Source of the DNA: Acidobacteriota bacterium
GTDB taxonomy: Bacteria; Acidobacteriota; Terriglobia; Terriglobales; Acidobacteriaceae
Reading direction: 5' to 3'
DNA: 48,055 bases
NCBI GenBank assembly: GCA_003225175.1
Contig: QIBA01000059.1
Span: 1 to 48,055, forward strand
Shown here: positions 14,094 to 39,801 of the stretch, in pieces
Layout of the letters: each line of letters starts with the position of its first letter
How positions within the stretch are numbered: position 1 is the first letter of the stretch
Program-made: the position numbers and the translations under genes
Notes under the pieces: model-generated
Database searches by the model: none
What the model saw: the letters and a program-made list of their open reading frames with translations, nothing else
What the model was told of the DNA's origin: nothing

Positions 14094-14106
14094 GTCGTTG
14101 TAATCC

Positions 14107-14160
14107 GTAAGGCGATGGAGTTCGCCTGAACCGCCGATCTCACGGCTGATGACTCCTACA
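14107..14160 (+). ncRNA. Fluoride riboswitch (crcB motif)
   Basis: The conserved core of the crcB RNA motif is present: GGCGATGGAGTTCGCC (14111-14126), the AACCGCC strand (14129-14135), then GGCTGATGACTCCTAC (14144-14159). The motif binds fluoride through Mg2+ ions and raises expression of fluoride-tolerance genes. A 7-bp hairpin (TTCCAGC/GCTGGAA, 14166-14182) follows without a T-tract, so the expression platform may act on translation, or termination may be weak. It lies 57 nt upstream of crcB, exactly where expected. Confidence 0.93.
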
Positions 14161-14216
14161 ATCTCTTCCAGCTTTGCTGGAACAAAAGTGGAAGTCTTTA
14201 GGACGGGACGAACTTC

Positions 14217-18605: not shown

Positions 18606-18974
18606 GGGGGCGTCACGGCTTCGACGGAAGTGCTTGCGGCTGAGAGGCATGCCGGGGTGCACACACCCGTAATCGCGTGCAAAACAACAATTGCCAATCA
18701 AAACCTGGCATACGCTGCTTAATTAATTAAGTAGCCGTCCTAGGCGGAAGGGCCCGCGGGCCGCCCAAGGACGTCATTTAGCGGGCTGGTCTCCGGCGCG
18801 CGGTCCGAGTGCCGGAGGCGAGATCATCGGACTAGCGGTTTGCGTTTCTTGTCCGCTCTGAGCGCCGGCTGCGAACGTTCCCGTAGAAGTACGGGAGCAT
18901 GAACGCGACTAAGCATGTAGTCTCTTCGCCAGTAACATTTTCGGACGCGGGTTCAACTCCCGCCGCCTCCACCA
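18606..18974 (+). ncRNA. ssrA: Transfer-messenger RNA (tmRNA)
   Basis: The gene rescues stalled ribosomes and tags their products for degradation. The 5' end GGGGGCG (18606-18612) pairs with CGCCTCC (18964-18970), followed by A and an encoded CCA. The T arm is GCGGG-TTCAACT-CCCGC, and the 5' part contains the usual CACGGCTTCGAC. The mRNA-like part begins at GCG (18675) preceded by TAATC, as TAGTC precedes the resume codon in E. coli. It reads ACKTTIANQNLAYAA and stops at TAA (18720-18722). One-piece architecture; I see no sign of permutation. Confidence 0.97.
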
Positions 18975-30876: not shown

Positions 30877-31869
30877 TCAGCCTCCTATATGCACCATGCT
30901 TCGTGAAGGCTGCATGAAGCCAGGTTCGCCGATATGGTGTCGGGCTTCCTTCTTCTCTACGACTGAGCGGATGTAATCGGCCATTTCGGCATCGTCTCCG
31001 CCGCGTTGCATTACAGCATAGAGATCGTGATCGAAGAGAGAGAAGAGGCAGGTCCGGATTTTGCCGTCGGAGGTGATGCGGATTCGGGAGCAGTGTCCGC
31101 AGAAGGGCTTGGAGACGGGAGCGATGATTCCGATTTCGCCCAAGCCATCTTCAAACGTATAGCGGCGCGCGGTTTCGCTGGCGACATTAGCCGGCAGCTC
31201 TCGTACCGCTTTCCATGATGAGAGCGTCTTCACGATTTCATCCAGAGTAACGACCACCTCTGGGCTCCACACGCGGTCCTCTTCCAGTGGCATGAATTCG
31301 ATGAACCGCACGATCACGCCTTGATCGCGGGAAAACTTGGCGAACTCGATAATCTGGTCCTCATTGAAACCGCGCAGCAGCACGCAATTCACCTTCACTG
31401 GATCGAGAGCTGCTCGCCGGGCTGCGCGAATGCCGGCGAGAACCCGCTCAAATCCGCCGGAGACACGCGTGATGCGCGCGAACTTTTCTCGATCGACGGC
31501 ATCCATGCTGACCGTGATGCGGCTCAGTCCTGCGTCCTTGAGCGGCTGGGCGAGATCCTCGAGCAGGTGCCCGTTTGTAGTGATCGCGATATCGGGTTTG
31601 TGCCCGCTCGTAGTGCGGAGTTGTGCTACTTCGCGAACAAATTCGACTACGCCACGGCGCAATAGCGGCTCACCGCCAGTAATTCGTACCTTCTCGATTC
31701 CCAGCGAGACCATGACCCGCACCATGCGCAGGTACTCTTCGAGCTTGAGATCTGCGTACTGCGCGCCCTCATTTCCGGTTCGACAATACACGCAGCGATA
31801 GTTGCACCGGTCCGTAATGGAAATGCGCAGATCGGTGATGGCGCGTCCGAATTTGTCTTGCAGCGGCAT
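30877..31869 (-). CDS. moaA: GTP 3',8-cyclase MoaA
   Basis: The 330-residue radical SAM enzyme starts molybdenum cofactor synthesis by rearranging GTP to 3',8-cyclo-GTP, which MoaC converts. The N-terminal [4Fe-4S] motif is C22-x3-C26-x2-C29 (CNYRCVYC). The C-terminal cluster site is CGHCSRIRITSDGKIRTC, and the protein ends in the essential Gly-Gly (HIGG). The start is not certain: the ATG at 31869 gives the usual length but has no Shine-Dalgarno, whereas a GTG at 31998 has GAGGG 5 nt upstream and would add 43 residues without family character. No other moa genes are nearby. Confidence 0.95.
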   Translation of the reverse strand: MPLQDKFGRAITDLRISITDRCNYRCVYCRTGNEGAQYADLKLEEYLRMVRVMVSLGIEKVRITGGEPLLRRGVVEFVREVAQLRTTSGHKPDIAITTNGHLLEDLAQPLKDAGLSRITVSMDAVDREKFARITRVSGGFERVLAGIRAARRAALDPVKVNCVLLRGFNEDQIIEFAKFSRDQGVIVRFIEFMPLEEDRVWSPEVVVTLDEIVKTLSSWKAVRELPANVASETARRYTFEDGLGEIGIIAPVSKPFCGHCSRIRITSDGKIRTCLFSLFDHDLYAVMQRGGDDAEMADYIRSVVEKKEARHHIGEPGFMQPSRSMVHIGG

Positions 31870-32080
31870 AGGCCAGTGAATGTTAGAGGCAAAACTCGCG
31901 TCGGCGGATTCGGAATTCAGTTGGAAGGGAAGACACGCCTGCGAACGGCGATTAGCGGGCGGTTTCCTTTCCAAAACGGGAGGCGCAAGCGTTTCCACTC
32001 ACACCCTCGGCCGAATCACTCCGGCACCGTCGCCACAACCAGGTATTCCACAGGTCGAGGCGATCGAAAACCTCTAACAA

Positions 32081-32160
32081 ATAGGGTACAGGGAATAGGG
32101 GACAGGGTACAGGGGGAAAAACAGGGGACAGGGGACAGGGACAGGGACAGGGATAGGGAA
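32081..32160. repeat. Array of ACAGGG units (inverted CCCTGT family)
   Basis: About ten units such as ATAGGGTACAGGG, GGGGACAGG and GGGACAGG are strung together. The array faces the opposite array at 32243-32277, and the pair could form a large stem. Both lie between moaA and the HhH protein gene. Confidence 0.85.
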
Positions 32161-33096: not shown

Positions 33097-33363
33097 ATGC
33101 CCGCGAAAGTTAAGAAGGTGAAGGCTCGTCCTAAGCGCACGATCCTGGCCAAAGACGACCATCCAGTTGGTTTGTGGATCGATAAAGAGCTGATCCGCAA
33201 GCACACGCAGCAGCAAACGCCGCGAACGATCATTCACGGCAGCTCTGAGGCCGCCGGAAATCGGTATCTGGAATTGGCCGACATCGCCCTCGGCAATCCC
33301 AAAAACAACAAGAAGAAGACCAACGGCAAAGCAAGCTATTCCAACGGCAAGACTAACCTGTAG
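33097..33363 (+). CDS. Small basic protein, function unknown
   Basis: The 88-residue product is Lys/Arg-rich at both ends (MPAKVKKVKARPKR..., NNKKKTNGKAS) with a short ordered-looking middle (HPVGLWIDKELIRKHT, NRYLELADIALG). I recognise no family; nucleic-acid binding is suggested only by charge. An in-frame TTG at 33049 is a less likely start. The stop codon is 2 nt before the -35 hexamer of the his promoter, so it is a separate unit. Confidence 0.5.
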   Translation: MPAKVKKVKARPKRTILAKDDHPVGLWIDKELIRKHTQQQTPRTIIHGSSEAAGNRYLELADIALGNPKNNKKKTNGKASYSNGKTNL

Positions 33364-33364
33364 T

Positions 33365-33394
33365 TTGACAGGGCGCCGCAAGGCCATGTATCGT
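33365..33394 (+). promoter_or_regulatory. Promoter of the his operon
   Basis: A perfect TTGACA (33365-33370) is followed after 18 nt by TATCGT (33389-33394). Transcription would start near 33401, about 8 nt before the leader peptide ATG. Confidence 0.65.
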
Positions 33395-33408
33395 AACCGG
33401 CAATAGAG

Positions 33409-33480
33409 ATGAGTACACTCCGCCATCATCGCCACCATCATCACGCGGCGAACGTGTCGGCGGAGCTCTCTAGCGACTAA
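33409..33480 (+). CDS. hisL: his operon leader peptide
   Basis: A 23-codon frame (ATG 33409, TAA 33478) contains R-H-H-R-H-H-H-H at codons 5-12, six His codons within seven positions. This is the hallmark of a histidine attenuator: when charged tRNA-His is short, the ribosome stalls on this run. It starts about 8 nt after the likely transcription start with no good Shine-Dalgarno, and lies directly between the his promoter and the attenuator hairpins. Confidence 0.93.
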   Translation: MSTLRHHRHHHHAANVSAELSSD

Positions 33481-33544
33481 ATACAGAAGCAATCATAGAG
33501 ATCAAGCCCGCTGACGCGAATCGCGTAGCGGGCTTTGTGTTTTT
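33418..33544 (+). promoter_or_regulatory. Histidine transcription attenuator (competing hairpins)
   Basis: Four segments can be assigned. A is CTCCGCC (33418-33424), within the leader codons just before the first His. B is 33456-33467 (GTCGGCGGAGCT). C is 33504-33515. D is 33527-33535. A pairs with B (7 bp, GGCGGAG). B pairs with C (11 bp with one G.U and one bulged A) to form the antiterminator. C pairs with D in the terminator. A ribosome stalled on the His codons covers A and frees B, so the operon is read through. Confidence 0.85.
33504..33544 (+). terminator. Attenuator terminator hairpin upstream of hisI
   Basis: AAGCCCGCT (33504-33512) pairs with AGCGGGCTT (33527-33535). An inner ACGCG/CGCGT stem closes around AAT. 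The tract TTGTGTTTTT follows. Confidence 0.9.
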
Positions 33545-33579
33545 GCGCGCACGCGAACGGGCCGAACGTGGAGATGAAG

Positions 33580-33924
33580 ATGGAAATCGATTTCAACAAG
33601 ATGGATGGCTTGGTGCCGGTAGTTGTCCAGGACAATGCCAAGGGCGACCTGCTGATGGTCGGCTTCGCCAATGCTGAAGCATACGAGAAGACGCTCGCGT
33701 CGGGATATGTGACGTTCTTCAGCCGCACGCGCCAGAAGCTGTGGATGAAGGGCGAGAGCTCTGGCAATCGCCTGCGCGTAATCTCGGCCGCCACTGATTG
33801 CGACAACGATTGCCTGCTCTTCCGTGTGGAGGTCGAAGGTGATGGGCTCGTCTGCCACGAAGGCACACGATCTTGTTTTACGAAGAGCATCGCGCTGAGT
33901 GAAGCGCCCGAGATAGTCGGATGA
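33580..33924 (+). CDS. hisI: Phosphoribosyl-AMP cyclohydrolase
   Basis: The 114-residue enzyme opens the purine ring of PR-AMP, the third step of histidine synthesis. The metal sites are visible: D73-C74-D75-N-D77 and C92...C99 in [12 protein letters not shown]. It carries only the cyclohydrolase domain; the PR-ATP pyrophosphatase (hisE) is neither fused nor in this cluster. I chose the ATG at 33580, with GGAG 6 nt upstream; another ATG two codons earlier is possible. It is the first gene after the attenuator and overlaps hisG by 4 nt. Confidence 0.95.
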
Positions 33925-34790
33925 AGATCCGCCTCGGAATTCCTAAAGGCAGCCTGCAGGACGCGACTGTCGCGCTGTTCGCGCGGGCCGGCTTCAACAT
34001 TTACGCGAATGGCCGCTCCTACTTCCCTTCCATCGATGATCCGGAGATTGAGTGCATGCTGATTCGCGCGCAAGAGATGGCGCGCTATGTCGAGCATGGA
34101 TTCCTCGACGCTGGGCTCACTGGCCGCGATTGGGTGCTGGAAAGCGGACTTGAGGTCGAGACCGTTACTGATCTGGTCTATGCGAAGCAGAGCCGTGGCA
34201 AGGTGCGCTGGGTGCTCGCGGTTCCGCAGGACTCCCGTTTTGAAAAAGCTGAAGATCTAAGCCATTGCATCATCGCCACGGAATTGGTGAACACGACCAA
34301 GAATTACTTCGCCTCGAAGAATGTTCCAGTGAAGGTTGAGTTCTCCTGGGGCGCTACCGAGGTGAAGCCACCGATTCTTGCCGACGCTATCGTCGAAGTT
34401 ACCGAAACGGGAAGTTCCTTACGAGCCAACCGGCTGCGCATCATCGAGACGGTTTGCGAGTCGCAGACTCAGCTGATCGCCAATAAGGCAGCATGGCAGT
34501 CAGCGGAGAAGCGCAAGAAGATCGAAAACATCGCGCTGATGTTGCGCGGCGCCATCGACGCTCAAGGACGCGTGGGGCTGATGCTCAATGTTCGCAAGCG
34601 TGATCTGAATAACGTGCTCGCAGTCTTGCCTGCATTGAACAGTCCGACGGTTTCTGAATTGAACGACCGCGACTGGGTGGCTGTGAACACGATCCTTGAA
34701 GAGAGCGTCGTGCGCGATGTAATGCCCAAGTTGAAAGACGCGAATGCGAGTGGGATTGTCGAATATCCCTTGAACAAGATCGTGATGTGA
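33921..34790 (+). CDS. hisG: ATP phosphoribosyltransferase, long form
   Basis: The 289-residue enzyme makes the first committed intermediate, PR-ATP. The catalytic domain begins [14 protein letters not shown] and contains [20 protein letters not shown] (PRPP loop). The C-terminal regulatory HisG_C domain (about 215-285, [19 protein letters not shown] and [11 protein letters not shown]) marks the long form, which is inhibited by histidine and does not need HisZ. ATGA overlap with hisI shows translational coupling. Confidence 0.97.
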
Positions 34791-34803
34791 CCAGGACAAG
34801 CGA

Positions 34804-36048
34804 ATGAAGCTCATCACCAGCAAACGCGGTACCGCAGTGCTCAATCGATTGGCAAATCGCGGCGCGCTCGATCTTGCACGCGTGGAGAAGACAGCTGCCA
34901 AGATTGTCGGCGAAGTGAGAACGAAGGGCGATTCGGGATTGCTTCGTTACAGCCGAAAGTTCGATGGCCTCGCGAGCAAGACATTCCGCGTCAGTCAGTC
35001 AGACATCGATGCCTCGTGGCGGCAGGTCAGCTCTGAGTTTCGCGCTGCACTTGAGAGCGCCGCGGAGAATATCCGGCGCTTCGCTGAGTGGCAGAAACCG
35101 CTGGAGTGGATGCGCGATGTGCAAACTGGCGTTCGACTCGGGCAAATGGTTCGTCCGCTCGAGTCCGTCGGATGCTATGTACCTGGTGGACGCCATCCTT
35201 TGCCTTCGACGCTGCTGATGACGGTGATTCCCGCGCAGATAGCGGGAGTACCGCGAATCGTGGTGGTGTCTCCGCGACCCGCGCCTGAAACCCTGGCAGC
35301 CGCTTCCCTGCTCGGGGTGAAGGAGTTTTATGCGATAGGCGGCGCGCAAGGGATCGCCGCACTTGCATACGGCACTCGCACGATTCCACGCGTTGACAAG
35401 ATCGTTGGACCCGGCAATGCCTTTGTGACTGCGGCCAAGAAGCTCGTCGCGTTCGACTGCGCAATCGATATGCTCGCGGGGCCGACGGAAGTCGTGATCG
35501 TGAGCGATTCGGGAAGCGCGGCGTTCATCGCAGCCGATCTCGTTGCTCAGGCCGAGCACGATCCCGACGCGCTCGCAGTCTTCATCACATCGAACGAGAA
35601 ACTTGCCAAGCAAGTACTAGACGAGACACAACGACAATCGGCTGCGAACCACACAGCGCGGCAGTCGCTCAAAAAGAATGGCTATGTGATCGTGACCTCG
35701 TCGCCTGGCGAGTCAATGCTTATCGCAAACCAGCTCGCTCCGGAGCACATCACGGTCGCATCGCAACGCGAAGTTTCTGAAATTCAATCCGCAGGATCCG
35801 TTTTTGTCGGAGACTATTCGCCGCAGGCCGCTGGCGATTACCTATCGGGTCCGAATCATGTCCTTCCCACAGGGGGAACAGCGCGTTTTCGCTCCGGACT
35901 CAGCGTGAACGATTTTGTAAAGCTGATTACTGTTCAGGAATTTACTGCCAGAGGCCTGCAGACGATCGCGCGCGAGGTGAGTACGCTCGCGCAGGCGGAA
36001 GGCCTGGTCGCACACGCGCATTCGATCGCAATAAGGATGGGGGCGTGA
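34804..36048 (+). CDS. hisD: Histidinol dehydrogenase
   Basis: The 414-residue zinc enzyme performs the last two steps, oxidising histidinol to histidine with two NAD+. Signatures include PGGRHPLPSTLLMTVIPAQIAGV, the VDKIVGPGNAFVTAAKK block, AGPTEVVIVSDSG, DLVAQAEHDPDA (zinc-binding Gln/His), NQLAPEHI (catalytic Glu-His) and GPNHVLPTGG. Length is normal. It follows hisG by 13 nt, and its TGA overlaps the hisC ATG by one nucleotide. Confidence 0.97.
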   Translation: MKLITSKRGTAVLNRLANRGALDLARVEKTAAKIVGEVRTKGDSGLLRYSRKFDGLASKTFRVSQSDIDASWRQVSSEFRAALESAAENIRRFAEWQKPLEWMRDVQTGVRLGQMVRPLESVGCYVPGGRHPLPSTLLMTVIPAQIAGVPRIVVVSPRPAPETLAAASLLGVKEFYAIGGAQGIAALAYGTRTIPRVDKIVGPGNAFVTAAKKLVAFDCAIDMLAGPTEVVIVSDSGSAAFIAADLVAQAEHDPDALAVFITSNEKLAKQVLDETQRQSAANHTARQSLKKNGYVIVTSSPGESMLIANQLAPEHITVASQREVSEIQSAGSVFVGDYSPQAAGDYLSGPNHVLPTGGTARFRSGLSVNDFVKLITVQEFTARGLQTIAREVSTLAQAEGLVAHAHSIAIRMGA

Positions 36049-37166
36049 TGGAGAAGACTCTGCAAGCCCGCAATGCAGTGCGCCGCATGAAGGAATATCA
36101 TCCGCCGCTCAGTGGGCGAAACGGTCTTCGGCTCGATTTCAACGAGAACACTGATGCTCCCTCTCCACGTGTTATGGAAGTTTTGAAACACATTGCCTGC
36201 GGCGAGCTCACGAAGTATCCGGAACGCGCTCCATCAGAAGGCCGGATGGCTGAGTTTCTTCGACTCAAACCCGACCAGGCGCTGCTCACGAATGGTGTAG
36301 ACGAGGCAATTCACTTACTATGCGAAACGTTTCTTGAGCCGGGCGATGAGGTACTGATCGTAGTGCCCACGTTCTCGATGTACGAGATTTACGCACAGAG
36401 CACAGGCGCAAGAGTAATCACGGTACAGGCGAACCCGGAGCGGGGATTTCGGTTTCCGATTGAGGTTCTCTTGAGTTCTATTACCGGAAAGACACGCATG
36501 ATTGCGCTCGCGAGTCCCAACAACCCCACGGGGGCGGTTGTCGCACGGGCGGATTTGCTGCGGATTGCGGATGCAGCTCCGGCAGCCGCGGTGCTGGTCG
36601 ACGAAGCTTATTACGACTTTTGGGGACAGACTGTGATTGATGCCGTCACGCGCTTTCCCAACCTCTTCGTAACGAGAACATTTTCGAAGGCGTATGGCCT
36701 GGCTGGTTTGCGCATAGGCGTACTCGCGGGCAACAGCATTCAGATGCCGATGGTTCGCAAGGTCGCGTCGCCCTATAACGTGAATGGAATCGCTCTTGCG
36801 TGCCTGCCGCACGCAATTGCCGACCGAGACTTCCTTGCGGACTATATTCAGCAGGTCCTGCAGGGGCGCGCGCGCCTGATGATTCAGCTTACGTGCCAGG
36901 GAGTTCCATATTGGATCAGCCAAGCGAACTTTGTGCTGGCGAAAATAGGCCCGCTACATCGGGAATTTGTTGCCGAGATGCGGAAGCGCGGCATCCTCGT
37001 GCGAGACCGCAGTAGCGATCCCGGCTGCAACGGCTGCGTCCGCATGACGGTAGGCACAACTGAGCATACGGAACGCCTGTTGATAGTTCTGCCTGAGGTA
37101 CTGAATACGATCGGCTGGATGGCAACGCAACAGGTTTCGGCTAGTCCTATTATGGGAAGCGTGTAA
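36048..37166 (+). CDS. hisC: Histidinol-phosphate aminotransferase
   Basis: The 372-residue fold-type I PLP enzyme transfers the amino group of glutamate to imidazole-acetol phosphate. Visible are [23 protein letters not shown] (substrate pocket Asn), VDEAYYDF (PLP-binding Asp and Tyr) and [14 protein letters not shown] with the PLP lysine K214. I use the ATG at 36048, overlapping the hisD stop; the GTG one codon earlier is an alternative. The stop TAA overlaps the hisB ATG. Confidence 0.96.
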
Positions 37167-37753
37167 TGAGGACCGCCAAGCTAAAGCGCAAGACGACGGA
37201 AACGCAGATCGGTCTTTCCCTAAACATCGATGGTCGCGGCAAGTACGAAGTCGCAACCGGCATCCGTTTCTTCGACCATATGCTGGAGCTGTTCGCGCGA
37301 CATGGAGCTTTTGATCTGCAGTTGCGTTGCAATGGCGACCTGGATGTCGACCAACATCACAGCGTTGAGGACGTGGGGATCGCGCTGGGCGAAGCTTTCG
37401 ACAAAGCGCTTGGCAATCGCAAAGGAATTCTGCGCGCCGGTTATTTTCTGATGACGATGGATGAAACTTTGGGAATGGCCGCGGTCGATCTGAGCGGTCG
37501 AGCGGTGGCAGTCGTGGATGCGAAGGTTCGTACGAGACTGGTAGGTGATTTTCAATCAGAGCTGGCGCATGACTTCTTCGAAGGCTTCGCGCGCGGTGCG
37601 CGGGCCAGCGTTCATGTAAAGACGCTGTATGGCCGCTCGAATCATCACAAGCTGGAAGCGTTGTTCAAAGCATTCGCTCGCGCGCTGCGTTTTGCCTGCT
37701 CGCGCGACAGGCGCCTGGCGAAGATGTTGCCCAGTACAAAGGGGCTGTTGTGA
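37166..37753 (+). CDS. hisB: Imidazoleglycerol-phosphate dehydratase
   Basis: The 195-residue manganese enzyme makes imidazole-acetol phosphate. The metal-binding repeats are visible: [20 protein letters not shown] and [19 protein letters not shown] in the first half, and [13 protein letters not shown] and [20 protein letters not shown] in the second. It lacks an N-terminal phosphatase domain, so histidinol phosphatase must be encoded elsewhere. TGA overlaps the GTG of hisH by 4 nt. Confidence 0.97.
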
Positions 37754-38343
37754 TCGCCATCATCGATTACAAAGCGGGCAATCTGGCATCGGTGAAGAAA
37801 GCTCTAGATCATCTCCAGGTTGAGGCTGTCGTGACTGACGATCCCAGGCTCGCGAGCCGCGCGGATAAAGTCATCCTTCCCGGCGTTGGACATTTCGCCG
37901 CGACAAAGGAATTGAGTCGTACTGGTTTATGCGAGGCCATCCGGGAGAGAATCGCTGCCGAAAAGCCATTTCTCGGAATTTGTGTCGGAATGCAATGGAT
38001 GCTAGCGGGCAGCAGCGAAGCTCCAGATGTTTCTGGATTGGGAGCTATCCGGGCAAACTGTGAGCGCTTTCAATCAAACGATCTGAAGGTGCCGCATGTC
38101 GGGTGGAACCAAATCGCAAAGGTGCGCGACTCCAGGCTCCTCGCTGGTATCGATTCGGGATCATTCGTTTATTACTCCCACTCTTACTATGTCCCGATGA
38201 ACGCTGAGACTGTGGCAACCTCGGAGTATTGCGGAACTTACTCCGCTGCATTAGAAAACGATCATCTGTTCGGAGTGCAGTTCCATCCTGAAAAATCGGG
38301 GCAGGTGGGGCTACGCGTACTCAAGAACTTCTGCGATCTCTGA
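37750..38343 (+). CDS. hisH: Imidazole glycerol phosphate synthase, glutaminase subunit
   Basis: The 197-residue class I glutamine amidotransferase supplies ammonia through a tunnel to HisF. The nucleophile is Cys78 in GICVGMQ, and the His/Glu pair is in [11 protein letters not shown]. The N-terminus ([18 protein letters not shown]) is typical. The start is a GTG inside the end of hisB. Its partner hisF is next, 22 nt downstream. Confidence 0.97.
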
Positions 38344-38365
38344 GGGGCTTAGTCTTTCTCCAGAA

Positions 38366-39133
38366 ATGCTGACTAAACGAATCATTGCGTGTCTGGACGT
38401 CGATGCCGGACGGGTCGTGAAGGGAACTAAATTCCTGAACCTGCGCGACGCCGGAGATCCTGCCGAACTCGCCCGAGCGCATGCCGAATCGGGAGCGGAC
38501 GAGATCGTTCTGCTCGACATTTCCGCCACGCATCAGAATCGTGGAACGCTTATCGACGCAGTCAAACGAGCGGCGAGTGAGCTGTTTATTCCCTTTACGG
38601 TTGGTGGGGGGATTCGTACGCTCGAGGACGCCGCAGCGATGTTCGACGCTGGCGCTGACAAGATCAGTATTAATTCCGCCGCAGTACGCGATCCAAGGCT
38701 CATCGAGCGAATTGCCTCCCGTTTTGGGTCGCAAGCCGTCGTGGTTGCAATCGATGCACAAAGAAATGGCGATGGTGAGAACTATAACGTGCTAGTCGCC
38801 GGAGGTCGCACCCCTACGGGACGCAAAGCTGTGGAGTGGGCGGTGGAAGCTGAGCGCCACGGCGCCGGAGAGATTCTGCTCACCTCCATGGATCGGGACG
38901 GTACTGGCGCCGGCTTTGACTGTTGCCTTACATCGGCGGTGAGTTCCTCAGTTGCCATCCCTGTGATTGCCTCCGGCGGCGCCGGCAGCAGCGATCATTT
39001 CGTTGAAGTCTTCGCTGCAGGCCGGGCGGATGCAGCTCTCGCTGCTTCTGTCTTCCATTTTGGAGTGCAGGACATTCGCGAGCTAAAAGTCATTTTGCGA
39101 TCGAAGAACATTCCGGTGAGGCCGCCGTGCTGA
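38366..39133 (+). CDS. hisF: Imidazole glycerol phosphate synthase, cyclase subunit
   Basis: The 255-residue TIM barrel joins PRFAR and ammonia to give imidazole glycerol phosphate and AICAR. The first catalytic Asp is D11 in [16 protein letters not shown]; the second is in VVVAIDAQ. Phosphate-binding loops [11 protein letters not shown] and [12 protein letters not shown] are intact, and [13 protein letters not shown] is typical. It overlaps hisA by 7 nt. Confidence 0.97.
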
Positions 39134-39801
39134 TTCCTTCCATCGACCTGATGGGCGGCAAGATCGTGCAGCTGGTGCAGGGCGAACGCAAGGCACTCGA
39201 GTTCGCCAACTTCGCTGAGTGGATGGATCGTTTCAGGAAATTTGCCATCGTTCAACTCATTGATCTCGATGCCGCCATGGGAGTTGGCAGTAATCAGGAG
39301 CTAGTGAAGGAATTCTGCGCTGAACTTCCTTGTCAGGTTGGTGGTGGCTTACGCACCGAAGGGAAAGCTCGTGCTGCGCTCGCGAACGGAGCACGGAAGG
39401 TGATCATCGGCTCGTCGCTGTTCGGAGAGGGCGGTGTGAATCTCAACTTTGCGAGAGCTCTTGCTCGGGAACTTGGATCGGAGCGACTGATCTTTGCAGT
39501 CGATTCGCGAGACGGGTTCGTTGCCGCAAAAGGATGGAAGCAGAGTACAGGATTGGGTCCCGCGGACGCCATGCGCGAACTCGATCCATTCTGCTCGGCG
39601 TTTCTCTACACTCACATTGAAACAGAGGGTCTCATGCAGGGATTCCCTTTTGAAATCCTTGCAGATTTGCGTCCAGCAACAAGCAGGAAGCTGATCGTCG
39701 CTGGCGGCATTGCGACACAAACCGAGATCGACCAGCTGGATGCGATGGGCATAGATGCCGTGGTTGGAATGGCCATCTACACCGGAATTCTTACTGTGTG
39801 A
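39127..39801 (+). CDS. hisA: ProFAR isomerase, divergent HisA
   Basis: The 224-residue TIM barrel should isomerise ProFAR to PRFAR. It has the N-terminal Asp ([17 protein letters not shown]), [17 protein letters not shown] and [15 protein letters not shown] phosphate loops. It is about 20 residues shorter than E. coli HisA, and the usual TDISRDGTLxG segment is replaced by [11 protein letters not shown], a divergence reminiscent of eukaryotic-type enzymes. Position as the last his gene, overlapping hisF, supports the assignment. The start is GTG. Confidence 0.88.

Follow-up and report, generated by a model that had tools for sequence, protein, structure and literature searches.

Histidine attenuation is familiar from enteric bacteria, in which hisG is the first gene of the his operon, and a second kind of leader, the T-box, acts by sensing tRNA. 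Comparative surveys of such systems reportedly come from the Gelfand and Lyubetsky groups. In the sections of a 2022 paper available to us, his attenuators are described in general as His codons in a leader combined with alternative hairpins and are placed in three Firmicutes lineages, and T-box riboswitches of the histidine type are given as controlling his genes by histidine supply (PMC9413887). In the accessible parts of three further papers, Acidobacteria are mentioned for the distance from a leader gene to the next gene (PMC4833913), go unmentioned in one that lists His leaders (PMC3766115), and figure as a soil phylum whose predicted attenuators are almost without assigned functions (Naville and Gautheret 2010, PMC2965389). 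Ribosome-mediated attenuation is a known kind of regulation, and a literature search that covered mostly papers open without subscription, so that an earlier mention is possible, returned no report of a his attenuator in Acidobacteria, as judged by title, abstract or accessible sections.

Here we describe the leader of a his operon in an Acidobacteriota contig (QIBA01000059.1), of which the whole stretch of 48,055 nt was analysed and is referred to below as the window. The initial annotation, made from the letters alone, had read this leader as a histidine attenuator and its host as acidobacterium-like. The host assignment agrees with the closest named hisI loci among the matches listed, which are Acidobacteria MAGs with a best identity of 88%. 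As to function, we infer that the best explanation is, with high probability, a ribosome-mediated transcription attenuator of the his operon.

The region upstream of hisI in the window

The elements ahead of the his operon follow each other on the + strand in the order promoter, leader, antiterminator, T-tailed terminator and then hisIGDCBHFA. The sigma-70-type promoter (TTGACA-18-TATCGT, 33365–33394, with the -35 box at 33365–33370 and the -10 box at 33389–33394) has no second promoter-like site beside it between 33250 and 33650 (shuffle mean 0.2), and from the position of its -10 box a 5' UTR of about 7 nt is expected for the leader. The leader ORF (33409–33480), with 23 codons encoding MSTLRHHRHHHHAANVSAELSSD before the stop, is without a Shine-Dalgarno-like motif and has His at codons 6, 7, 9, 10, 11 and 12. 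The run taken to be regulatory, CAT CAT CGC CAC CAT CAT CAC (33424–33444), holds six His in seven codons.

The three pairings put forward in the initial annotation, A:B, B:C and C:D, each fold when checked, with z-scores of -2.8, -4.0 and -4.5, respectively. Segment A (33418–33424) forms 7 bp with 33459–33465 in a local fold of -25.9 kcal/mol that is not conserved across relatives. Segment B (33453–33463), the predicted 5' strand of the antiterminator, lies within the leader ORF, starting 8 nt past the last His codon and ending (its end taken as 33465) 13 nt ahead of the leader stop codon; over 11 bp it pairs with segment C (33508–33518; -29.8 kcal/mol), with which it covaries among relatives. 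Segment C is common to this antiterminator and to the predicted intrinsic terminator hairpin C:D (33504–33535; -23.6 kcal/mol), where 9+5 bp around one bulged G join 33504–33518 to 33522–33535 and lead into the T-rich tail TTTGTGTTTTT (33534–33544). A simple terminator scan with a loop limit of 8 did not list C:D, probably because the bulge gives the outer 9-bp stem a 14-nt loop. Promoter, 23-codon leader with its six His, 11-bp B:C helix and C:D with T-tract, all of them read directly from the letters beforehand, are indeed present in the window, with positions and counts as first given.

The first gene controlled would be hisI (33580–33924, + strand), which encodes phosphoribosyl-AMP cyclohydrolase (NF000768, 129.5 bits, cut-off 126). 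It is followed at close spacing by hisG, hisD, hisC, hisB, hisH, hisF and hisA (33921–39801, + strand), recognised by family profile matches; the best match of hisA, TIGR00007, scores 157.7 bits against a curated cut-off of 228.95. There is no hisE in the operon (33580–39801), and neither TIGR03188 nor PF01503 has a match across the 98.9% complete genome of the window, the same two profiles matching 13/14 and 14/14 control genomes, respectively. Another enzyme may carry out phosphoribosyl-ATP hydrolysis in this genome.

Neither RF00514 (His_leader, at its gathering score) nor the T-box RF00230 (by cmscan) was found in the window or in 20 relatives, and both are absent among the matches up to E=10 at 33340–33600. 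The Rfam families that do match up to E=10 (antisense Bp2_287, PyrG_leader, Trp_leader, Thr_leader and antisense P9) all lie below their gathering scores and were rejected. Elsewhere, the window holds a molybdenum cofactor riboswitch (RF01055, 60.3 bits, 31948–32081, - strand) before moaA (30877–31998), a riboswitch family seen also beside hisI in two relatives (L031 and L032), together with a fluoride riboswitch (RF01734, 62.3 bits, 14102–14165, + strand) and a tmRNA gene (RF00023, 186.1 bits, 18606–18974, + strand).

His-rich leaders and alternative hairpins among relatives

A leader was defined as a short ORF (8–60 codons) in which His fills at least 4 of 8 codons, lying in relatives no more than 450 nt upstream of hisI. 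With the HisI of the window as query, 30 loci from relatives (47 with a match among 61 genomes) were combined with the best 80 of at least 542 confirmed named loci, and 104 distinct hisI loci remained after orienting them and dropping 6 duplicates. A His-rich leader stands upstream in 96 of the 104, and the His codons, whose lack in homologous loci the initial annotation had named as evidence against its reading, are therefore kept. Four of the other eight loci (L034, L096, L101 and L099, the last labelled Parabacteroides) have just 3 to 372 nt of upstream DNA, and the remaining four bear the labels Parabacteroides (L089, L098), Pacearchaeota (L109) and bacterium (L110). Three loci labelled Acidimicrobium/Actinobacteria (L100, L105 and L107) carry the His leader MLITHVAHHHVHHVTRRAHL and a terminator before hisI; either the device also occurs outside the phylum, or it was transferred, or the labels are off.

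The leader was likewise present in 15/15 further members of the window's family and in 12/17 other members of its order or class. The five without it include a truncated locus (L149); in L151 the ORF has three His in 8 codons, one short of the threshold, and is accompanied by a promoter and a terminator, and the class members L155, L156 and L157 show no His leader upstream of hisI. Among the 30 best-scoring hisI loci from other classes (L111–L140), a leader upstream of hisI was found in L134 only.

Scanned on both strands, the 48-kb window contains two His ORFs of this kind, the his leader and an unrelated one, and 191,948 bases (both strands) of 30 other loci of the phylum also contain two, one of which is the L134 leader, itself upstream of hisI. 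Such ORFs arise by chance roughly once per 100 kb of strand, which is the point in favour of chance, that is, of an ordinary terminator standing beside an accidental His-rich ORF. We give this account practically no credence: conservation and covariation in relatives and the linkage to his genes already refute it.

His is encoded in the 96 leaders by 378 CAT and 270 CAC codons (longest in-frame ORF counted). Use of both is expected if it is the identity of the amino acid that counts, as it would be in a working His-rich microprotein (metal-binding, for example) with hairpins that only end its transcript; attenuation predicts the same. Apart from its His run the peptide is highly variable, a microprotein leaves the B:C pairing unexplained, and the conserved peptide stretch of VSA type is accounted for by segment B, whose partner in covariation, C, lies beyond the stop codon. 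A microprotein function appears to us highly improbable, and the hairpins are considered below as parts of an attenuator.

A T-tailed hairpin lies 16–43 nt past the leader stop codon in 91/96 relatives; in the remaining five the T run behind the GC stem is shorter. Some dozen Bryobacter-type loci have just 10–20 nt between the end of the terminator hairpin and the HisI match, close enough for the hairpin to touch the ribosome site, and a T-tract is lacking after 3/12 leaders of other classes (L196, L204 and L205, before hisG or hisI), which may work by a route other than intrinsic termination. Both observations would suit a translational control in which the hairpin, or translation of the leader, governs ribosome access to hisI or re-initiation, with termination playing a minor part. 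However, T-tailed hairpins are the rule after the leader, and the window has 35 nt between T-tract and hisI, with a GGAG site belonging to that gene, so that we regard translational control as very unlikely and transcription attenuation as the best explanation.

Conservation of the helices was assessed in three sets of leaders: A1, an unfitted MAFFT alignment of 40 leaders chosen from the 68 with at least 60% HisI identity; A2, all 68 plus 15 family leaders, in 81 distinct rows; and A3, 24 distant, mostly Bryobacter-type leaders, consisting of L074 and L092, shared with A2, and of 22 leaders out of the 28 that fall under 60% identity. In A1, 90.8% of B:C cells are paired, against 22–56% when the strands are slid, with 5 doubly changed pairs (as many in 1/500 shuffles) and a covariation score found in 0/500. 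In A2, the B:C complementarity that the initial annotation had proposed to follow in related genomes is kept in 87.5% of cells over the 81 distinct sequences (30–43% slid), again with a covariation score at 0/500; there are 22 doubly changed cells as compared to 7.4 in shuffles (0/500) and 6 doubly changed pairs (14/500 shuffles). A slide of +1 does not lower the number of doubly changed cells (8 vs 8 in A1 and 27 vs 22 in A2), but then only 22% and 30% of cells, respectively, are paired. In the distant set A3, pairing reaches 83.3% (37–52% slid) and covariation is weak (double changes 30/500 and pair types 358/500 shuffles).

The C:D hairpin is paired in 74.6% of cells over 14 pairs in A1 (0/500 shuffles) and in 90.7% over 9 pairs in A2, with 37 doubly changed cells against 8.5 in shuffles (0/500); in A3 it is paired in 94.0% at +1 from the named register and in 45.2% at the named register. 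An unaligned duplex test singled out B:C at p≤0.05 in only 50/96 loci. Judged from these alignments, the predicted antiterminator B:C and the predicted terminator C:D are conserved with compensatory changes and have segment C in common. With the His codons and the B:C pairing both kept among relatives, the core of the initial annotation, a histidine attenuator of an acidobacterial his operon, holds up well.

Segment A, which the initial annotation had placed right before the His run as a part of the device, is a different matter: the 7-bp A:B hairpin exists in the window, but comparison did not bear out its claim to be a general part. In the window register neither A1 nor A2 shows covariation beyond shuffles (434/500 and 373/500 as high, respectively). 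An alignment-free helix between the 5' part of the leader and B reaches p≤0.05 in 14/83 loci, where about 4 are expected; three of the 14 belong to the window's genus (L002, L031 and L032), L004 of that genus fails, and the window itself stands at p = 0.065. A wider, cruder test gives p≤0.05 in 35/96. A:B as a conserved helix was rejected on the lack of covariation and the few loci above shuffles, so that a segment A placed ahead of the His run does not emerge as a common part; by this comparison A:B, seen in the genus of the window, appears to be an addition of local extent outside the common device.

The geometry of the leader offers a reason why such a hairpin could be dispensed with. In 71/83 loci, 8 or 11 nt lie between the last His codon and B, and B ends a median of 13 nt before the leader stop (range -4 to 25, n=83, the low extreme being probably a misalignment). 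A ribosome at the stop codon would, given the size of its footprint, cover part of B, and with B covered by a ribosome waiting there a protector hairpin would not need to be conserved. The relation between A:B strength and the B-to-stop distance is weak (Spearman 0.25, p 0.02).

The leader start was taken as the in-frame ATG nearest the His run, and longer in-frame alternatives in some leaders would change the gaps given here. A TAnnnT motif ends 5–11 nt before this start in 85/96 leaders (random positions, 126/4800), and a TAnnnT 5–14 nt before the start combined with a -35 box of at least 5/6 at 16–19 nt occurs in 64/96 vs 11/4800 at random. The gap from the -10 box to the start is 14 nt in the window and 8 to 14 nt within its genus. 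An SD-like motif precedes the leader in 4/96 loci and hisI in 52/96. As the -10-like element is close to the start and SD-like motifs are rare, the leader mRNA should be leaderless, or almost leaderless, in most relatives, the 5' ends being placed from the position of the -10 element.

Distribution of the his leader and arginine candidates

A covariance model, R1, was built from A2 with the B:C helix, and its training set includes the window's family. At E≤0.001 it has matches in 141/200 genomes of the class, 11 of them with two matches, and none in the other 59. Outside the window's family 102 class genomes are matched; we tested 40 of these, comprising 20 of the best and 20 weaker matches (E up to 6e-6), none of which overlaps the training set by exact sequence. 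A his gene lies downstream in the right orientation in 40/40, and 39/40 have a leader that reaches the threshold of 4 His in 8 codons. The R1 search is blind to genes, and the his linkage is therefore independent evidence of function. The gene concerned is hisI in 39 cases (within about 600 nt) and hisG in one; the hisI-first order of the window, singled out in the initial annotation as a departure from a hisG-first arrangement, is therefore the usual one in the class.

Across a phylum-wide sample, R1 matched 35/199 genomes. Twenty of the 35 matches belong to the training set, and every one of these sits just ahead of hisI; 12 of the 15 non-training matches precede his genes. For one match in the class and eight in other classes, hisI comes shortly after, and three matches open a his operon elsewhere (at hisG in L194 and L196, and at hisD in L195, the genes being named from their sequences), so that in other classes hisG or hisD can come first after a His leader. 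All 11 his-linked matches in other classes have a His-rich leader. The last three of the 15 (L206, L207 and L208) are unrelated to his genes.

One of these stray matches, L208, adjoins a gene that we take, from its sequence, to be argC-like. Across argC-like loci of its order (L208 and L209–L218 among them) an Arg-rich leader, e.g. MLLPPAERPAARVRRAPCVRRVAAV, is present in 9/14, and in 9/14 loci a T-tailed hairpin follows 29–35 nt past the stop, before argC. The Arg-rich ORFs sit just after a TTGACA/TATnAT-like promoter, the -10 element ending 7–11 nt before the leader start in 7/9. Pairing of the B:C type reaches p≤0.05 in 4/9 of these leaders and fails clearly in two (L217 and L218, p about 0.7). 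The Arg-rich leaders before argC could represent arginine attenuation built on the same plan, of which a literature search by titles and the beginnings of abstracts found no description.

The window's own genome has no Arg-rich leader at argC, where the preceding ORF is presumably an arginine repressor gene, and shows no convincing runs of the matching codons within 600 nt before ilvB-, trpE-, hisS- and leuA-like genes (seven loci, of which L183 is without an upstream stretch). The nine Arg-rich leaders out of 14 argC-like loci in another order would point to reuse of the design for further amino acids. Such reuse would be part of a wider reading, a class of leaderless attenuators belonging to Acidobacteriota, with starts at a bare 5' end, a ribosome at the stop codon in place of the protector hairpin and use for several amino acids, a generalisation that we put forward tentatively and hold to be somewhat more doubtful than probable.

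Proposed mechanism and comparison with known attenuators

In the mechanism that we propose for the his operon, transcription would start just ahead of the leader ORF, and ribosomes would load close to the 5' end with no Shine-Dalgarno sequence to guide them. When charged His-tRNA is short, the ribosome would stall in the His run, upstream of B, leaving B free to pair with C; the antiterminator would form and RNA polymerase would continue into hisIGDCBHFA. When His-tRNA is ample, the ribosome would reach the stop codon, some 13 nt beyond B, and its body would cover part of B, allowing C:D to form and transcription to end at the T-tract. In the window's genus, the extra A:B hairpin may occupy B when the leader is not translated.

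Termination would leave a short, terminator-capped leader RNA of about 145 nt. This RNA might act in trans in addition to its part in attenuation, for which rnTrpL of Sinorhizobium meliloti is a precedent in the sections of the paper at hand (PMC7298713); we think such an added role unlikely for the his leader. If attenuation in cis operates as outlined, ribosome-mediated attenuation is likely to be the usual control of histidine synthesis in this class, which belongs to a large soil phylum whose members are mostly uncultured. R1 represents an RNA family that can be annotated and is without a match in Rfam 15, the his leader might serve as a read-out of histidine supply in soil transcriptomes, and the system would provide a natural test of attenuation with neither a protector hairpin nor a Shine-Dalgarno start.

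Leader ORFs at the very 5' end of the transcript would be a feature shared with trpL of Sinorhizobium meliloti (PMC7298713) and with leuL, trpL, ilvL and others of Streptomyces lividans (PMC8079986), as described in the portions of those papers available to us. Those attenuators concern other amino acids and other phyla, and their 5' ends are reported whereas ours are placed from promoter positions, with a gap of 14 nt in the window. The candidates of PMC9413887, compared with the window by their description, have leader peptides with three to five consecutive His codons and terminator/antiterminator hairpins before his genes; they come from another phylum, and the main text of that paper is without Acidobacteria. 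The enteric his attenuator (hisL, RF00514) resembles the window in the run of His codons within a short leader ORF, in the alternative antiterminator and terminator and in the position before the his operon. In contrast to the enteric system, where hisG comes first, the type found in the window precedes hisI, has no conserved A:B hairpin and would begin with a leaderless or nearly leaderless start.
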